Source of the DNA: Marinobacter alexandrii
Lineage (GTDB): Bacteria > Bacteroidota > Bacteroidia > Cytophagales > Cyclobacteriaceae
DNA: 64,000 nucleotides
Assembly (NCBI GenBank): GCA_039984955.1
Contig: JBDWTN010000007.1
Location: 2,178,501 to 2,242,500, forward strand
Direction: 5' to 3'
Shown here: positions 6,255 through 64,000 of the stretch, piece after piece
Layout: the number at the start of each line of letters is the position of its first letter
Numbering within the stretch: position 1 is the first letter of the stretch
The notes under the pieces: model-generated
The model's database searches: none
Seen by the model: only the letters and a program-made list of their open reading frames with translations
Told to the model about the DNA's origin: nothing
Made by a program: the position numbers and the translations under genes

Positions 6255-9059
6255 TTAGTGATTTGGAGCTAGCTTCTCCTTCAAGTATTGGGCAGTATAG
6301 TTATCCTTGAGTTTGATCATATCTTCAGGGAGTCCGGTAAAGCAAATGGTCCCTCCTTCTTCCCCTCCTTCTGGTCCCAAATCGATAACCCAATCGGCAT
6401 TTTTAATTACTTCTGTATTGTGCTCAATGATAATCACAGAGTTTCCTGCATCTACTAATGCATTGATTGCATCTAGCAATTTTTTGATGTCATGGAAATG
6501 GAGACCGGTTGTAGGTTCGTCAAATATGAAGAGGATGTGGTCTGTGTTGCTATTCTTACTTCCTTTTGAAAGAAAAGAAGCAAGTTTTACTCTTTGTGCC
6601 TCACCACCACTTAGAGAATTAGATCCTTGTCCAAGTTTCACATAACCGAGCCCCACATCAAATAACGGCTTTAACTTGTTGGTAACTCCATTATTACCCT
6701 CAAAAAATTCGATGGCTTCCTGAACAGATAGATCAAGTACTTCTGATATATTCTTGTCATTATATTTGACTTCAAGAATCTCTTTCTTGAATCTTTTTCC
6801 ACCACAATTTTCGCAGGTTAAGTGGAGATCAGCCATAAATTGCATTTCAATCTTCACTGTACCCTCACCTTCACAGACCTCACATCTTCCACCATCTACA
6901 TTGAAAGAGAAATGTGCAGGTTTGAAATTATTCGTTTTTGATAGGGGCTGATCAGAAAAAAGCTGCCGTATTGCATCATAAGCTTTGACATAAGTAACGG
7001 GGTTCGATCTAGAACTTTTGCCGATAGGATTCTGGTCTACAAACTCAACCTGAGTTATTTTCTTATAATTTCCTGTCAGATTCGTAAACTTTCCTGATGC
7101 CTCTCCGATTAACCCTAATTGCTTACCAATGGCAGGGTGAATTATTTTCCTCACTAATGTGGACTTTCCAGATCCACTTACACCCGTAACAACTGTAAGC
7201 ACGCCTAATGGTACTTCAACATTGATGTCTTTTAGGTTATTCTCTCTTGCTCCTTCTATCTGAACTGAAGTTCTCCAAGGTCTCCTGCGTTCCGGAACAG
7301 GTATTGATTCTTTTCCCTGAAGATATTTGGAGGTATATGAATTAGTATCTCCATTCATCTCAGAAGTTTTACCTTGAAAGACGAGCTCTCCACCAAAAAC
7401 TCCAGCATCTGGACCAATGTCAATGATTTGATCTGCAGCTTCCATAACCTTTTCCTCATGCTCTACTACAATCACTGTATTGCCAACATCTCGAAGTGTT
7501 TTCAAAACATCAATCAATCGGTCAGTATCTCTAGGGTGAAGTCCTATGCTGGGCTCATCCAATATATACATGGAACCTACCAAGGCGCTACCCAGCGATG
7601 TAGCCAATTTGATTCGTTGAAATTCTCCACCCGAAAGGGTACTGGTTAATCGATTCAAGGTGAGATAACCTAAACCTACTTGATCTAGATATGAAAGACG
7701 ATTTTTGATTTCTTCAAGGATTCGCTTTGCTATTTTTTCATCATGCTTACTCAGTTTGATGGAGTCAAAAAATGGCCTCAGCTTTTTAACGGGCATTAAT
7801 ACTAAGTCGGTAATTGAGTGCGCATCAATTTTAACATAGCTTGCATCTTTTCTAAGCTTAGTGCCTCTGCAATCCGGACAAGTAGTCTTTCCCCTGTAGC
7901 GAGAAAGCATCACTCGGTATTGAATCTTGTGGAGCTTTGATTCCAAGTGGGAGAAAAACGCGTTCAATCCTTCAAAGTATTCATTGCCTGTCCATAGGAG
8001 ATCATATTCATTTTGTGAGAGCTCAGCAATTGGACGATGGATAGGAAAATCAAACTTGATTCCGTCTCTAAGGAGAGGTTCCGCCCATTTTTTCATGGTT
8101 TCCCCTTTCCATGGAGCAATTGCGCCTTCGTAGACAGAAAGATTTCTATCTGGGATGACAAGATCAGGATCTATGCCTAAAACTCTTCCAAACCCTTCAC
8201 ACTTTCTACATGCACCATAAGGATTATTGAAGCTGAAGAAATTGACTGTTGGCTCCTCGAATATGATATCATCTAATTCAAAACGATCTGAAAAGCTTTT
8301 TTGTCCTTTATCAACAAGGGTCACAGTACAATCACCTTCTCCTTCGAAAAAGGCAGTTTGAACGGAATCAGCTAATCTAAACTGCGTTGCTTCATCACTT
8401 TGTACTACTGCTCGATCTATTAGAATCTCTACTTCTCCTTTGGGTTCTTTTTTAGTATCTAAGGTGTCTTGAATGAAGGCAACTTCACTATCAATGAGTA
8501 CTCGGGTGTATCCTTTACTCATCAAAATTTGAAACTCTTTGGTCAGCGTTCGATCTTCTTTCAGCTTTAAAGGGGTAGTAATCATCAACTTTACTCCTTC
8601 GTCATGAGATAATATATAGTTGACAACATCTGTGACAGTATCTTTTTTGACTTCTTTGCCAGAAGTAGGAGATATGGTTTTTCCAATCCTTGCAAACAAT
8701 AGTTTGAGATAATCGTAGATTTCTGTGGTTGTACCAACGGTTGACCTAGGATTTCTTGAGGAGACTTTTTGCTCAATAGCTATTGCAGGAGCAACTCCTT
8801 TGATATAATCGACTTCCGGCTTTTCCATTCTCCCCAAAAACTGTCGAGCATACGAACTCAGGCTCTCTACATATTTCCTTTGGCCTTCGGCAAAGAGTGT
8901 ATCAAATGCCAAGGAAGATTTACCAGAACCTGAAAGCCCTGTTATTACCACGAGTTGATCACGAGGAATTGCAACATCCAGGTTTTTGAGGTTATTTACC
9001 CTTGCACCTTTGATGATAATGTATTCTTTGGGATCTAATTTGTCAATTTTTCCAACCAT
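6255..9059 (-). CDS. uvrA: Excinuclease ABC subunit A
   Basis: DNA-damage recognition ATPase of nucleotide excision repair. Two ABC modules are complete: Walker A sites GLSGSGKSSLAFDTL and GVSGSGKSTL, signatures LSGGEFQRIKLA and LSGGEAQRVKLA, and Walker B sites YILDEPSIGLHP and FIFDEPTTGLHFHD. Zinc modules are CRKCEGFG with CPDCRGTKL in the first half and CEVCEGEG with CENCGGKRF in the second. The length of 934 residues is normal. It is a single gene with about 170 bases separating it from the divergent sigma factor gene. Confidence 0.97.
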   Translation of the reverse strand: MVGKIDKLDPKEYIIIKGARVNNLKNLDVAIPRDQLVVITGLSGSGKSSLAFDTLFAEGQRKYVESLSSYARQFLGRMEKPEVDYIKGVAPAIAIEQKVSSRNPRSTVGTTTEIYDYLKLLFARIGKTISPTSGKEVKKDTVTDVVNYILSHDEGVKLMITTPLKLKEDRTLTKEFQILMSKGYTRVLIDSEVAFIQDTLDTKKEPKGEVEILIDRAVVQSDEATQFRLADSVQTAFFEGEGDCTVTLVDKGQKSFSDRFELDDIIFEEPTVNFFSFNNPYGACRKCEGFGRVLGIDPDLVIPDRNLSVYEGAIAPWKGETMKKWAEPLLRDGIKFDFPIHRPIAELSQNEYDLLWTGNEYFEGLNAFFSHLESKLHKIQYRVMLSRYRGKTTCPDCRGTKLRKDASYVKIDAHSITDLVLMPVKKLRPFFDSIKLSKHDEKIAKRILEEIKNRLSYLDQVGLGYLTLNRLTSTLSGGEFQRIKLATSLGSALVGSMYILDEPSIGLHPRDTDRLIDVLKTLRDVGNTVIVVEHEEKVMEAADQIIDIGPDAGVFGGELVFQGKTSEMNGDTNSYTSKYLQGKESIPVPERRRPWRTSVQIEGARENNLKDINVEVPLGVLTVVTGVSGSGKSTLVRKIIHPAIGKQLGLIGEASGKFTNLTGNYKKITQVEFVDQNPIGKSSRSNPVTYVKAYDAIRQLFSDQPLSKTNNFKPAHFSFNVDGGRCEVCEGEGTVKIEMQFMADLHLTCENCGGKRFKKEILEVKYNDKNISEVLDLSVQEAIEFFEGNNGVTNKLKPLFDVGLGYVKLGQGSNSLSGGEAQRVKLASFLSKGSKNSNTDHILFIFDEPTTGLHFHDIKKLLDAINALVDAGNSVIIIEHNTEVIKNADWVIDLGPEGGEEGGTICFTGLPEDMIKLKDNYTAQYLKEKLAPNH

Positions 9060-9237
9060 TTTAGGGGTATGCCTGTCTATGAAACACTAACAAAAGAATT
9101 CGGTTTCAAGCAGTGCAAAAATAAGGTGCTTACTTTTCCGAGTTGTTTAATTTTTATAATCTTGCTCACAAAATTATTTCAAACCCTTAACCATACAATA
9201 TGATATAGACCTCTACGTTAACAAACAGGTGAAATAC

Positions 9238-19208: not shown

Positions 19209-21119
19209 ATGAATTTGAATTATTCATTCTTAAAACCTTTAGTCCTACTTGGCTTTCTCATTCTTTTTCCAAGTGTGTTAATGTGTCAAAATTTTGGACT
19301 TGGTGCAACAAGATTAGACCTTATTGGAGAAGAAGACAATTCCACAATTTTAGAAATTGGCTTTACTCACTATGGAAATTCAGTTAATGCTGCTTCTGTA
19401 GAAGTATCATTTTCGATTGTAAATAGCGAAGATTCTATCTTTTTGGGTAAAGCGAGCTATCAAGTTCCAGATATGGAAAATTATCGTTCAGAAAGACAAA
19501 GTTTTGTTGTTTCATTGAATGGTAAAATTAGCAATGGAACCAATTACATTATAGCATTAATCGATCCTGAAAACAAACTAATTGAATCAAACGAGAATGA
19601 TAATGATTTCACTTATTCTTTCGTCTATTCTGAGACCGATTTTCCTAAATCCTATGATACAGTTTACTACGATCAGAAATTCTATAAAGAAGATAATTCT
19701 GTTTCAGAATTAATAATGACAAAAAATATTGGTGATTTCGATGGAGATGGCGTTGACGATTTAGCTCTTTTGTATACTGATTCTGTCGAAGTTTACACTA
19801 ATGCTTTTTGTAAGAAGCTTGTCTTCCAAATTGACAGGGCTGATAATTTTTTTAATACAATCCAATCCGGATTATTCAATAATGATAATTATTCGGATAT
19901 TATTATTTCTGTAAATAACAATAAGGTAGCAGGATCAGATTATCTTTATTTGATTCATGGTGGTAAAGATAAAGCAAGTGAAAAGGGAGCGGATAGCATC
20001 ATTTTTTTTAATCATCACATCGGATTCCAAGTTGTTGGGGATGTTAATGGTGACGGAAAAGATGACCTTGGCATAGCTTTAAAGGATGACGTTTTAAGGA
20101 GTTCGGCAGATTTGCAGATTCTTTATGGGGGTTCGTTTTCTAGTTCACTAACTGTATCATCCTCTTCTCGCTTATTGCTGGCTCCTAGATTCCATAAGAT
20201 TGGAGATTTAAATGGAGATGGTATTGATGATTTTGCCTTTACTGAAATCAGTAGCGATTACGTAGATATTCATTACGGTTCGATAAACAAAGAGTCTTTT
20301 ACTCCTGACAAAACAATTGAAGGAAGTTTTAATTCTAGACTTGGTTATAATATAATTTCCGGCCAGTTCTCTAATGATAAGGTTGATGATTTAATCATCA
20401 TACCAGCCAATTTTGAATCATCATATTCTGCTCTTCTGGTTAGAGGTGGTTCCATTCCTGAAGTTGTAGATTCAATAAAACTTCCAAGTTATCCTTTTGG
20501 AGATTTTACAGGACCCAATAAATTAGGCCTTAGTACTTACGCATTTTCAATTACTGATACTGATTCCAATGGTTATGATGAATTTATGATATCATCGCTT
20601 AAAGGACAGGGAGTTTATGAATCAAATGCTCTTCAAGTTGATGGTTCAAGTTTTGAGCAAGATAAGATTAACGCTAAAATCCTCAAGGGTCCTTTCAAGT
20701 GGTTAGGTTTTTTGAGTCCAAATACTGGCATCACTAGAACATTAAGCAATGCAGTAGGAGATTTTGATGGAAATGGATCAATAGAAGTCTTATTTCATGT
20801 GTCACGCCCTTTTCTTGACCCGATTAATATATTTATTTATTCTCTGGGGCAAGGGATTTTTAACCAAAGTCTTTGTAGCAAACTCCCACTTAATATTATT
20901 GAAAGTAATATGGAGAAAGAGATACCCAAGCTTTTCCCTAATCCTGCATCGGATTATGTCAATATTAATAATTTTTCTAATGGTAAATGGTCCATCTTAG
21001 ATCATACAGGGAGGATAATTCTTCAAGGTGATACTTCAACAATATTCATTGGTAATCTTAGTCCAGGTATTTATATAATGCGTCAAGATAGTCACTTCAT
21101 TCGTTTCTTGAAAAAATGA
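19209..21119 (+). CDS. Type IX-secreted protein with CARDB-like and FG-GAP repeats
   Basis: Signal peptide, then a CARDB-like domain (about residues 30-140, ending SNENDNDFTYSFVY), then FG-GAP/VCBS-type repeats with calcium-loop sequences NIGDFDGDGVDDLALL, VGDVNGDGKDDLGIAL, IGDLNGDGIDDFAF and AVGDFDGNGSIEV, forming a probable beta-propeller. The C terminus is a type A sorting domain: LFPNPASDYVNI, then GNLSPGIYIM and a basic end (FLKK). It should be exported by the type IX system and attached to or released from the surface. It is probably an adhesin or binding protein, with no catalytic motif seen. Confidence 0.85.
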   Translation: MNLNYSFLKPLVLLGFLILFPSVLMCQNFGLGATRLDLIGEEDNSTILEIGFTHYGNSVNAASVEVSFSIVNSEDSIFLGKASYQVPDMENYRSERQSFVVSLNGKISNGTNYIIALIDPENKLIESNENDNDFTYSFVYSETDFPKSYDTVYYDQKFYKEDNSVSELIMTKNIGDFDGDGVDDLALLYTDSVEVYTNAFCKKLVFQIDRADNFFNTIQSGLFNNDNYSDIIISVNNNKVAGSDYLYLIHGGKDKASEKGADSIIFFNHHIGFQVVGDVNGDGKDDLGIALKDDVLRSSADLQILYGGSFSSSLTVSSSSRLLLAPRFHKIGDLNGDGIDDFAFTEISSDYVDIHYGSINKESFTPDKTIEGSFNSRLGYNIISGQFSNDKVDDLIIIPANFESSYSALLVRGGSIPEVVDSIKLPSYPFGDFTGPNKLGLSTYAFSITDTDSNGYDEFMISSLKGQGVYESNALQVDGSSFEQDKINAKILKGPFKWLGFLSPNTGITRTLSNAVGDFDGNGSIEVLFHVSRPFLDPINIFIYSLGQGIFNQSLCSKLPLNIIESNMEKEIPKLFPNPASDYVNINNFSNGKWSILDHTGRIILQGDTSTIFIGNLSPGIYIMRQDSHFIRFLKK

Positions 21120-21120
21120 T

Positions 21121-21399
21121 TTAACCGACCTGAACCCCTTTCCAGAAAGCTACATACCCTTTAATATTTTTGGCTAGTTCGCTTGTTTCCGGGTAGTACC
21201 ATGCAGCATCTGCGTTTTCTTCACCGTTCACTGCTAATGTGTAGTAGCTGGCAGTTCCTTTCCATGGGCAAACACTATGTGTCTCCGTTTCTTTGAAAAA
21301 ATCTTGCTTGATTGATGAAGGAGGGAAATAATGATTTCCTTCTACTACTACTGTTTCATCACTTTCAGCGATTACTTCGCCATTCCATGTTGCTTTCAT
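21121..21399 (-). CDS. DUF427 protein
   Basis: Complete 92-residue DUF427 domain: MKATWNGEVIAESDETVVVE, then the conserved YFPPSSI, CPWKGTASYYTL and AAWYYPETSELAKNIKGYVAF. The fold is a small beta-barrel. Function is unknown despite wide distribution. It is convergent with the type IX-secreted protein, one base from its stop. Confidence 0.85.
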   Translation of the reverse strand: MKATWNGEVIAESDETVVVEGNHYFPPSSIKQDFFKETETHSVCPWKGTASYYTLAVNGEENADAAWYYPETSELAKNIKGYVAFWKGVQVG

Positions 21400-62834: not shown

Positions 62835-63713
62835 ATGCTCGCAAAAACCTATGGAAGTGCAGTCTATGGAGTAGACGCATATAAAATCACTGTAGAAGTA
62901 AATGTTGGTCAAGGCACTAAATTTTTTATGGTTGGCCTACCTGATTCTGCAGTAAAAGAAAGTGAGCAGCGCGTAGAATCAGCTATTAAAAATTTTGGCT
63001 ATCGAATGCCACGTCAAAAAGTGGTAGTGAACCTTGCTCCTGCAGATATTCGAAAAGAAGGATCCGCGTATGATCTTCCCATTGCACTAGGAATATTGAA
63101 AGCTTCAGAACAAATCGTCGCTGAAAACCTAGAAGAGTATCTAATCATGGGGGAATTGGCACTTGATGGTGACTTACGTCCAATCAAAGGAGCTTTGCCA
63201 ATCGCGATTGAAGCAAGAAAAAATGGATTTAAGGGGTTCATACTTCCAAAGGAAAACGCTACAGAGGCGGCCATTGTAGACGGACTTGATGTCATAGGTG
63301 TAGACAATATTAAAGAGGCGATTCTACATGTAGAAGGAGAGGAGGTTATTGAGCCACTGATCTACGATACTCGTGATATATTTTTCGCCAATCTGGACAA
63401 TTATGCTTCGGACTTCTCAGATGTGCAAGGTCAAGAAAACATTAAACGAGCCATGGAAATTGCAGCAGCAGGAGGACACAATGTGATCATGATTGGCCCT
63501 CCTGGAGCTGGTAAAACAATGTTGGCGAAAAGATTACCATCGATCCTTCCGCCACTCACATTGCATGAAGCATTGGAAACAACCAAAATTCATTCTGTTG
63601 CAGGAAAGCTTGGAACAGAAGGACAGTTAATTTCTCAGCGTCCCTTCAGACAACCTCACCATACTATTTCTGATGCTGCATTAGTAGGCGGTGCAAATAA
63701 CCAAAGTAATTGA
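62835..63713 (+). pseudogene. comM: yifB/comM, Mg-chelatase-like AAA+ ATPase, interrupted by a transposon
   Basis: The N-terminal part of the YifB/ComM family, which has about 510 residues, ends after 293 codons. The N-terminal Lon-like domain (PDSAVKESEQRVESAIKNFG) and the AAA+ Walker A GPPGAGKTMLAKRLPSIL are normal. The conserved FRQPHHTISDAALVGG is reached, then seven foreign codons (ANNQSN and stop) follow and the rest of the ATPase (Walker B, arginine fingers) is missing. ComM is a branch-migration helicase for natural transformation, so its loss should lower recombination of incoming DNA. Confidence 0.9.
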
Positions 63714-63754
63714 GATATTTACAATAGAGGAGAGACAGTCTCAATTACTATTGT
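63700..63754. repeat. Inverted 16-base repeats at the transposon end, possible TnsB sites or operator
   Basis: ACCAAAGTAATTGAGA (63700-63715) matches the reverse complement of TCTCAATTACTATTGT (63739-63754), 14 of 16 bases; the inner 11 bases are perfect. The second copy ends exactly at the tnsA start codon. TnsB-binding sites or a regulatory site for tnsA are both possible. Confidence 0.5.
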
Positions 63755-64000
63755 ATGAATAAAGAAGAATTAAAGCCGGTTCGAACACTTAAAAAAAACC
63801 ATACTTCACTTACGGGGAAGGTTTCGAATTCAGATGGAGATTTAAATTCTTTCGAATCTTCTCTTGAAAGAGACTTTATTTTGCTAACGAATTTTGACTC
63901 TAATGTCGAGAAATTTGTAGAACAACCCACTAAGATCGAATATCATGATGAATTTGGCAGATTGAGACATTATACTCCAGACTTTCTAGTGTTCTACAGG
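63755..64000 (+). CDS. tnsA: TnsA-type transposase endonuclease subunit (partial, runs off the window)
   Basis: 82 codons open to the window edge. Begins MNKEELKPVRTLKKNHTSLT, then SFESSLERDFILLTNFDSNV with the first catalytic Glu, VEKFVEQPTKIEY, and RHYTPDFLVFYR with the catalytic Asp of the TnsA nuclease. The following catalytic Lys lies outside. TnsA cuts the 5' ends of the transposon and works with TnsB. It is the first gene of the element, which presumably continues with tnsB, tnsC and a target selector. Confidence 0.85.
   Translation, partial: MNKEELKPVRTLKKNHTSLTGKVSNSDGDLNSFESSLERDFILLTNFDSNVEKFVEQPTKIEYHDEFGRLRHYTPDFLVFYR

Follow-up and report, generated by a model that had tools for sequence, protein, structure and literature searches.

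Towards the right-hand edge of the stretch of DNA analysed here (the window, 64,000 nucleotides, C7:2178501-2242500 of a 4.88-Mb genome), the yifB/comM gene of a member of the Bacteroidota breaks off within its conserved ALVGG codons, and a tnsA-like gene follows directly. The locus raises two questions: what has cut the gene, and which component chose the site. An earlier note on this DNA had proposed a Tn7-like transposon seated inside yifB/comM. Reading the contig rightwards bears this out: an element of 41,436 bp (C7:2242192-2283627), whose first base is window position 63692, has two recognizable ends and a flanking duplication, and separates two parts of yifB. The features at the junctions are the following:

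62835..63691, + strand: 5' part of yifB/comM, codons 1-285 plus two bases of codon 286, cut by the element
63687..63691 (C7:2242187-2242191), no strand: target-site duplication GGCGG, copy one, by junction comparison
C7:2283628-2283632, outside the window, no strand: target-site duplication GGCGG, copy two, by junction comparison
63692..64000, + strand: first part of the Tn7-like element, with its tnsA-side end TGCAAATAACC..., continuing to C7:2283627
63700..63716, + strand: terminal repeat ACCAAAG-N4-TGAGAT, found by eye; putative TnsB-binding site
63732..63742, no strand: palindrome GAGACAGTCTC near the element end, read from the sequence; present in Marivirga aurantiaca L062 too
63755..64000, + strand: first 82 codons of tnsA (Pfam PF08722, Tn7_TnsA-like_N, 1.8e-20; PF08721, 4.6e-6)

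The yifB frame opens at 62835 and its own sequence stops at 63691, after nucleotide 857 of the gene (codon 285 plus two bases); from there the frame runs 22 nt more into foreign DNA, with a stop codon at 63711-63713. Walker A (codon 221) lies before the break and Walker B (around codon 303) after it, and the ALVGG stretch is some 50 nt ahead of the Walker B codons. The 5' part matches Pfam ChlI (1.7e-49) and positions 1-96 of the 207 of the Mg_chelatase profile, and it lacks both Walker B and the C-terminal domain. Because the cut separates Walker A from Walker B, the remaining 292-aa frame should not make a working AAA+ ATPase.

The missing 3' half, expected by the earlier note at the far side, is found 41.4 kb further on, where yifB picks up again behind the second duplication (C7:2283628); its PF13335 domain (C7:2283994-2284284) is the sole match in the genome. 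When the flanks were joined in silico, an ungapped YifB of 512 aa was obtained, identical at 483 of 512 positions to the product of the intact G005 gene (512 aa). A genome-wide profile search detected no second yifB copy in the source genome. Nor is yifB equally short in relatives, a possibility raised by the earlier note. Among 39 genomes, the source included, 37 gave a strong yifB match, one (G008) a weak match and one (G031) none; frames of at least 477 aa were seen in 34 of the 36 other genomes with a strong match, and the two shorter frames belong to G004 (286 aa), where the match lies at a contig edge, and G017 (340 aa), where it is partial.

The two junctions have AGGCGGTG in common. 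Tn7 ends follow a TG..CA rule, and because this rule picks GGCGG from the shared AGGCGGTG, the duplication is read as GGCGG and the element termini as TG..CA, with ends TGCAAATAACCAAAG and CTTTGGTTTTTAACA. GCGGT, which the earlier note had pointed out at 63688-63692 as complement of the ACCGC duplication it ascribed to the Acinetobacter elements, is thus one base off. At the far end the terminal repeat recurs twice as ACCAAAG-N4-TGAGAC (by eye), and comparable terminal repeats are present in Marivirga aurantiaca L062. It is likely that they bind TnsB.

The search for transposition genes downstream of the window, suggested by the earlier note, gave tnsB, tnsC and also tniQ, which together with tnsA form a single row at one end of the element and are followed by a convergent gene:

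C7:2242255-2242932: tnsA, whole gene, 225 aa (Pfam PF08722/PF08721)
C7:2242848-2244776: tnsB (Pfam PF09299 and a weak rve match)
C7:2244745-2245653: tnsC/tniB-like gene (Pfam TniB)
C7:2245650-2246726: tniQ (Pfam TniQ)
C7:2246716-2248539, strand opposite to tnsABC: convergent gene for a 607-aa protein of a TnsE-like family

The 607-aa protein has no Pfam match at 0.01. It does not match TnsE_C itself, and its link to TnsE passes through distant family members, 3 of 28 aligned sequences matching that Pfam model at E<=1 (best 1.8e-6). Among the named loci, the family profile gave 32 matches at E<=1, of which the last two are weak; every one runs against the direction of tnsABC. A family member in G301 lies on the same strand. 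The AlphaFold model of the protein is middling (pLDDT 67.6), and Foldseek returned no match at E<=0.001; the weaker matches include PriB entries. PriB-like folds are reported for the N-terminus of TnsE in the part of PMC10293859 available to us. We consider with moderate confidence that the protein is TnsE-like.

By analogy with the Tn7 family, TnsA and TnsB would cut and join DNA and TnsC would connect them to the target selector. The TnsE-like protein would probably provide a second, plasmid-directed route. There is good reason to view the element, as described, as a targeted Tn7-like transposon of the cut-and-paste kind.

Is the position in yifB a matter of targeting? Relatives of the element are sparse: the TnsB search found 4 of 395 genomes in an even phylum sample and the TniQ search 2 of 395 in an even class sample, the source genome counted in both. 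A scan of named genomes gave 481 stretches, 433 of which were confirmed as TnsB relatives, and the counts that follow cover the best 80 of these 433. Forty-seven loci adjoin comM/yifB; the others comprise one near codon 74, 26 with no yifB close to the tnsA end and 6 too near a contig edge. By BLAST, the yifB boundary lies at codons 271-297, the ALVGG region, in 45 of the 47. In the other two (L082 and L115), yifB resumes beside tnsA only at codons 360 and 444, either by deletion or by use of another site. One could argue that the insertion is a chance landing without targeting, brought about for instance by the TnsE-like route: the element does have a TnsE-like gene, and 26 of the 80 nearest relatives are not beside yifB. 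Against this, in 45 of the 80 loci the cut falls within one and the same codon stretch, and the closest relative (L062) shares both site and orientation with the source element, so that untargeted landing is very hard to believe.

Since 22 of the 47 comM loci belong to Bacteroidota, with 20 inserted at the usual position, comM targeting is common in Bacteroidota among the nearest TnsB relatives (best 80 of 433), in agreement with the earlier idea of a comM-targeting Tn7 lineage in another phylum. The loci fall into two classes according to which part of yifB/comM adjoins the tnsA end: the 3' part in class A (41 of the best 80), the 5' part in class B (6 of the best 80). Class A labels also include Pseudomonadota, Campylobacterota, Verrucomicrobiota, Chloroflexota and Bacillota; in some cases (Bacillus subtilis L135, Akkermansia L123) the contig may have been misplaced. 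The class B arrangement is seen in the source element, Marivirga aurantiaca L062, Pseudoalteromonas (three loci), Motilimonas and Marinicella; cut points in the last three genera lie some 6 to 15 bases farther along (by eye). L062 is the nearest relative among the best 80 (TnsB 63%), with the same site, the same orientation and the same convergent gene. An element in G301, of the same class of bacteria as the source genome, is of class A; both ends are seen, and its duplication, TGGAG, lies two bases from GGCGG.

A TnsB tree of 84 rows, built with a quick method, joins the source element and L062 as a starred pair. States A and B require at least three changes on this tree. Forcing class B into a single clade costs 19.9 log units, short of a firm rejection (p-AU 0.058), and a single clade of Bacteroidota (G087 and G223 left aside) is not rejected (p-AU 0.393). 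Reversal of orientation may have happened more than once.

Some loci depart from the common pattern. A related element in G087 (L057) cuts yifB at codon 77, and L116 does so near codon 74. In Chryseobacterium arachidis L121 the yifB pieces at 8463-9131 and 20130-21251 overlap (codons 1-366 and 286-510), which is not a simple split.

Comparison with known systems was made to approach the second question. The element resembles Tn6022/AbaR of Acinetobacter in having TnsA, TnsB, TnsC and a short TniQ and in being inserted in the ALVGG codons of comM; its TnsB is about 43-44% identical to that of Tn6022-like loci of Acinetobacter, and its convergent TnsE-like gene may have a counterpart in tnsE of Tn6022, which lies on the opposite strand according to the available part of PMC10293859. 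The earlier proposal that the same site is used holds for the ALVGG codons; at finer scale, however, about 4 nt separate the cut from the one in Acinetobacter L120 (one junction, by eye), and the orientation is reversed. The tnsA end adjoins the 5' part of comM in the source element, whereas it adjoins the 3' part in all five comM-inserted Acinetobacter loci compared (L120, L130, L138, L139 and L141, all class A; A. baumannii AbaR lies outside this comparison). A sixth Acinetobacter locus, L137, is on a plasmid and has no yifB. A further difference is that TnsF lies beside tniQ in Tn6022/AbaR, and none was detected in the source element.

The latter difference bears on target selection. In Tn6022, as far as the accessible part of PMC10293859 goes, TnsF reads comM and is required, and TniQ acts as a hub. 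A TnsF profile, built from seven loci that are also counted among its matches, recognizes 13 of the best 80 loci, of which 12 belong to the 47 comM loci and one is the plasmid copy L137. One of its matches is a fused TniQ-TnsF protein (L101), at 3.8e-26. Clusters of tniQ are present in 44 of the 47 comM loci and TnsF in 11, or 12 with the fused L101; wherever TnsF was detected, it sits directly after tniQ. In the source element, a six-frame profile search of the whole length gave no TnsF match at E<=1. The same profile found none in the 22 Bacteroidota comM loci, one of which (L091) ends about 200 bp after tniQ.

The simplest candidate for the selector is TniQ itself, which would steer insertion into the conserved ALVGG stretch of yifB without TnsF, and we lean towards this interpretation with modest conviction. 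The alternative is that the element is of the Tn6022 type and its TnsF has diverged or lies elsewhere, in which case an unseen protein, not TniQ, would read yifB. The TniQ proteins of these elements have no long C-terminal extension (35 aligned), and a short TniQ is taken as a sign of another selector in the portion of PMC10293859 at hand, the same source in which TnsF is required by Tn6022. Besides, a strongly changed TnsF could escape the profile, and the Pfam scan covered 16 of the 64 candidate frames of the element. The TnsF genes detected, however, lie directly after tniQ, and the profile matches neither the element, searched in six frames, nor the 22 Bacteroidota comM loci. A hidden TnsF is thus a possibility that we regard as rather doubtful.

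Guidance by RNA was also contemplated. CAST I-B1 elements, Tn7-like and with comM as attachment site, use crRNA against comM (PMC11406308, in its available part), and two proteins encoded in the array described below match CARF models weakly (PADLOC, 4e-4 and 1.7e-3); these matches are taken as chance. The source element differs from CAST I-B1 in that no Cas protein, CRISPR gene or guide appears in the scanned part (16 of 64 frames with Pfam, 10 of 64 with PADLOC). The longest match between the element and the flanks of its target is 13 nt, within the 12-15 nt of controls, and Rfam gave no hit in L002-L004. Guide-RNA targeting was discarded as a candidate; we give it next to no weight.

Other users of comM provide a frame for these observations. 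Tsy, a tyrosine-recombinase element, reaches comM via TnsF (PMC10293859, part available); it has the target in common with the source element, which is a TnsAB transposon in which no TnsF was found. TnsE is known in comM-targeting elements (PMC11406308, in part). That comM is a target of many elements, and that its loss may protect them, is already in print (PMC4774983 and PMC11472951, and for the targeting PMC10293859, in the parts available), and in those parts TnsF or guide RNAs are described as selecting this much re-used landing site. Whether a TniQ can recognize a gene by itself becomes testable with the Bacteroidota branch, which inserts at these codons with no TnsF detected, and with its sub-branch of reversed orientation. 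The titles and abstract openings listed in searches of an open library, supplements aside, did not mention a TnsF-free comM-targeting Tn7-like branch in Bacteroidota, a reversed orientation, dprA elements with replacement genes or an array such as the one found here.

Loss of YifB/ComM may be a by-product of insertion or a benefit, the latter if it made removal of the element by transformation less frequent. In this context, other members of the TnsB lineage are informative. An element of a Sulfurovaceae genome (G889:C1:290421-311516; L134, L175, L176) interrupts dprA (duplication ATACT, ends TGTCAT/ATGACA, by eye). Its far end holds an intact dprA frame of 263 aa and, beside it, a gene that matches the TnsE-like profile (1.2e-15). 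Both comM and dprA act in transformation according to the accessible part of PMC11472951, and a dprA-splitting member extends the notion of elements settling in transformation genes. Because such elements carry a replacement for the target gene, a simple switch-off of transformation fits them less well; replacement gene carriage argues against it in those elements.

Two related arrangements were noticed. In Sulfurovum G888 (L124, L177), spread over two contigs, a 5' piece of dprA, a 580-aa gene and an intact dprA lie together, and a 3' piece of dprA adjoins tnsA on the other contig; the 580-aa gene, in the place of TnsE, does not match the TnsE-like profile. A comM-inserted element (L123:249-7439) has a complete comM right after tniQ.

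The earlier note had anticipated a defence system in the cargo beyond the window, and PADLOC detected one:

C7:2277371-2279211: CD-NTase and patatin phospholipase, CBASS pair (PADLOC 4.1e-99 and 2.7e-112; Pfam Patatin 1.2e-25)

A cyclase paired with a phospholipase effector is the arrangement of type I CBASS, and the cargo thus includes a type I CBASS system, which would supply the host with phage defence. The cargo also brings a cassette array of 38 units, which precedes the CBASS pair:

C7:2252287-2276002 (L002, L003), copies on the minus strand: array of 38 units with boundary repeat GTCTCACAAAACGA

Allowing up to 3 mismatches, this 14-bp repeat occurs in the array stretch in 38 minus-strand and 2 plus-strand copies; shuffled sequence gave a mean of 1.65 matches per 20 kb, both strands together. 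With at most 1 mismatch, the whole genome holds 30 copies, on one strand only and 28 of them within the array, and the pattern read backwards has 2 genome matches. The units span 170 to 1,667 bp. One frame of at least 60 aa is found in 30 of the 38 units, several in 4 and none in 4. The far-end repeats of the element and the array repeat share TGAGAC/GTCTCA, possibly by chance.

The nature of the array admits two main explanations. It might be an ordinary operon with a conserved signal between genes and ordinary gene duplication, and no cassette platform at all. The repeat runs straight into ATG in 20 of the 38 units; the resolvase near the array, ordinary in appearance, is the only adjacent recombinase; and no equally dense array exists among 148 genomes of the family (a sample outside which G001, G003, G004 and G006 lie). 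Against an operon, the sole gene of 2 of the 38 units is read from the opposite strand. In addition, the three pairs of duplicated units (98, 90 and 93% identical) are homologous from repeat to repeat and not beyond; of their ends (n=12), 8 coincide with counted repeats and the other 4 with degenerate ones. Repeats that resemble each other would, however, extend any alignment into themselves. An 81-aa cassette recurs in G003 (76% identity), bounded by a repeat and a degenerate repeat between non-matching neighbours; for a second gene shared with G003 the match is confined to the coding part. The operon interpretation strikes us as quite conceivable, if not the one we would choose. With slight preference, and judging from sequence comparison, we see the array as a putative cassette platform of an as yet unnamed enzyme.

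If so, the duplicates offer a hint of where exchange may occur. At their 5' ends they disagree in the first bases of the repeat and agree in the remainder, a pattern suggestive of exchange within the repeat's first half; the exact crossover point is masked by the likeness of the repeats to one another.

Integrons exchange folded attC sites. An attC array was discarded as an explanation: within 130 nt upstream of the repeat no complementary partner was detected, the mean best complement being 8.05 of 14 positions, compared with 8.12 at random places. None of 19 genomes has an integron integrase above the TIGR02249 cut-off. The source genome harbors nine tyrosine-recombinase matches with lower scores (best 99.8 bits, cut-off 265), none of them closer than 120 kb to the array. 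In its many units, mostly of one gene each, its repeats in one direction and its duplicates bounded by a recurring site, the array is reminiscent of CALIN (integron arrays without integrase), from which it differs in that its boundary is a 14-bp repeat without complementary partner and not attC. Integrons are carried by 10% of Tn7-like elements according to the accessible part of PMC8649781; a cassette array on a Tn7-like element is common to both cases, and the source array differs in having neither attC-like complementarity nor an integron integrase.

The serine recombinase (resolvase) at the head of the array was rejected as the cassette enzyme, as it looks an ordinary resolvase. A homologue in G005 has similar inverted repeats upstream (by eye) and a lone 14-bp repeat about 2.2 kb away; matches at 1e-45 occur in 2 of 296 genomes of a phylum sample, the source genome counted.

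A 12-mer test on 88 sequences detected the array pattern only in L002 and L003, both from the source genome. L103 and L111 were dismissed as further arrays: their repeats differ, and one in L103 is a coding repeat. Viral contigs contained two single matches and no array, and in plasmids two records matched, over just 67 bp of the resolvase gene. An attractive speculation is that the element combines a new type of cassette-capture platform, with a 14-bp double-stranded site and exchange in its first half, with a TniQ that reads the comM target alone; this combination we regard as tentative and on the improbable side. Were the array truly site-specific, it would amount to a second mechanism by which bacteria line up gene cassettes.

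Scattered copies of the repeat, 7 to 10 in each genome (up to 1 mismatch), are present in G001, G003, G004 and G006, which belong to the same genus. In G006, contigs C10 and C11 (L032:8717 and L033:219) have identical 22 bases before the repeat and two different sequences after it, as though a single cassette end adjoined two different partners.
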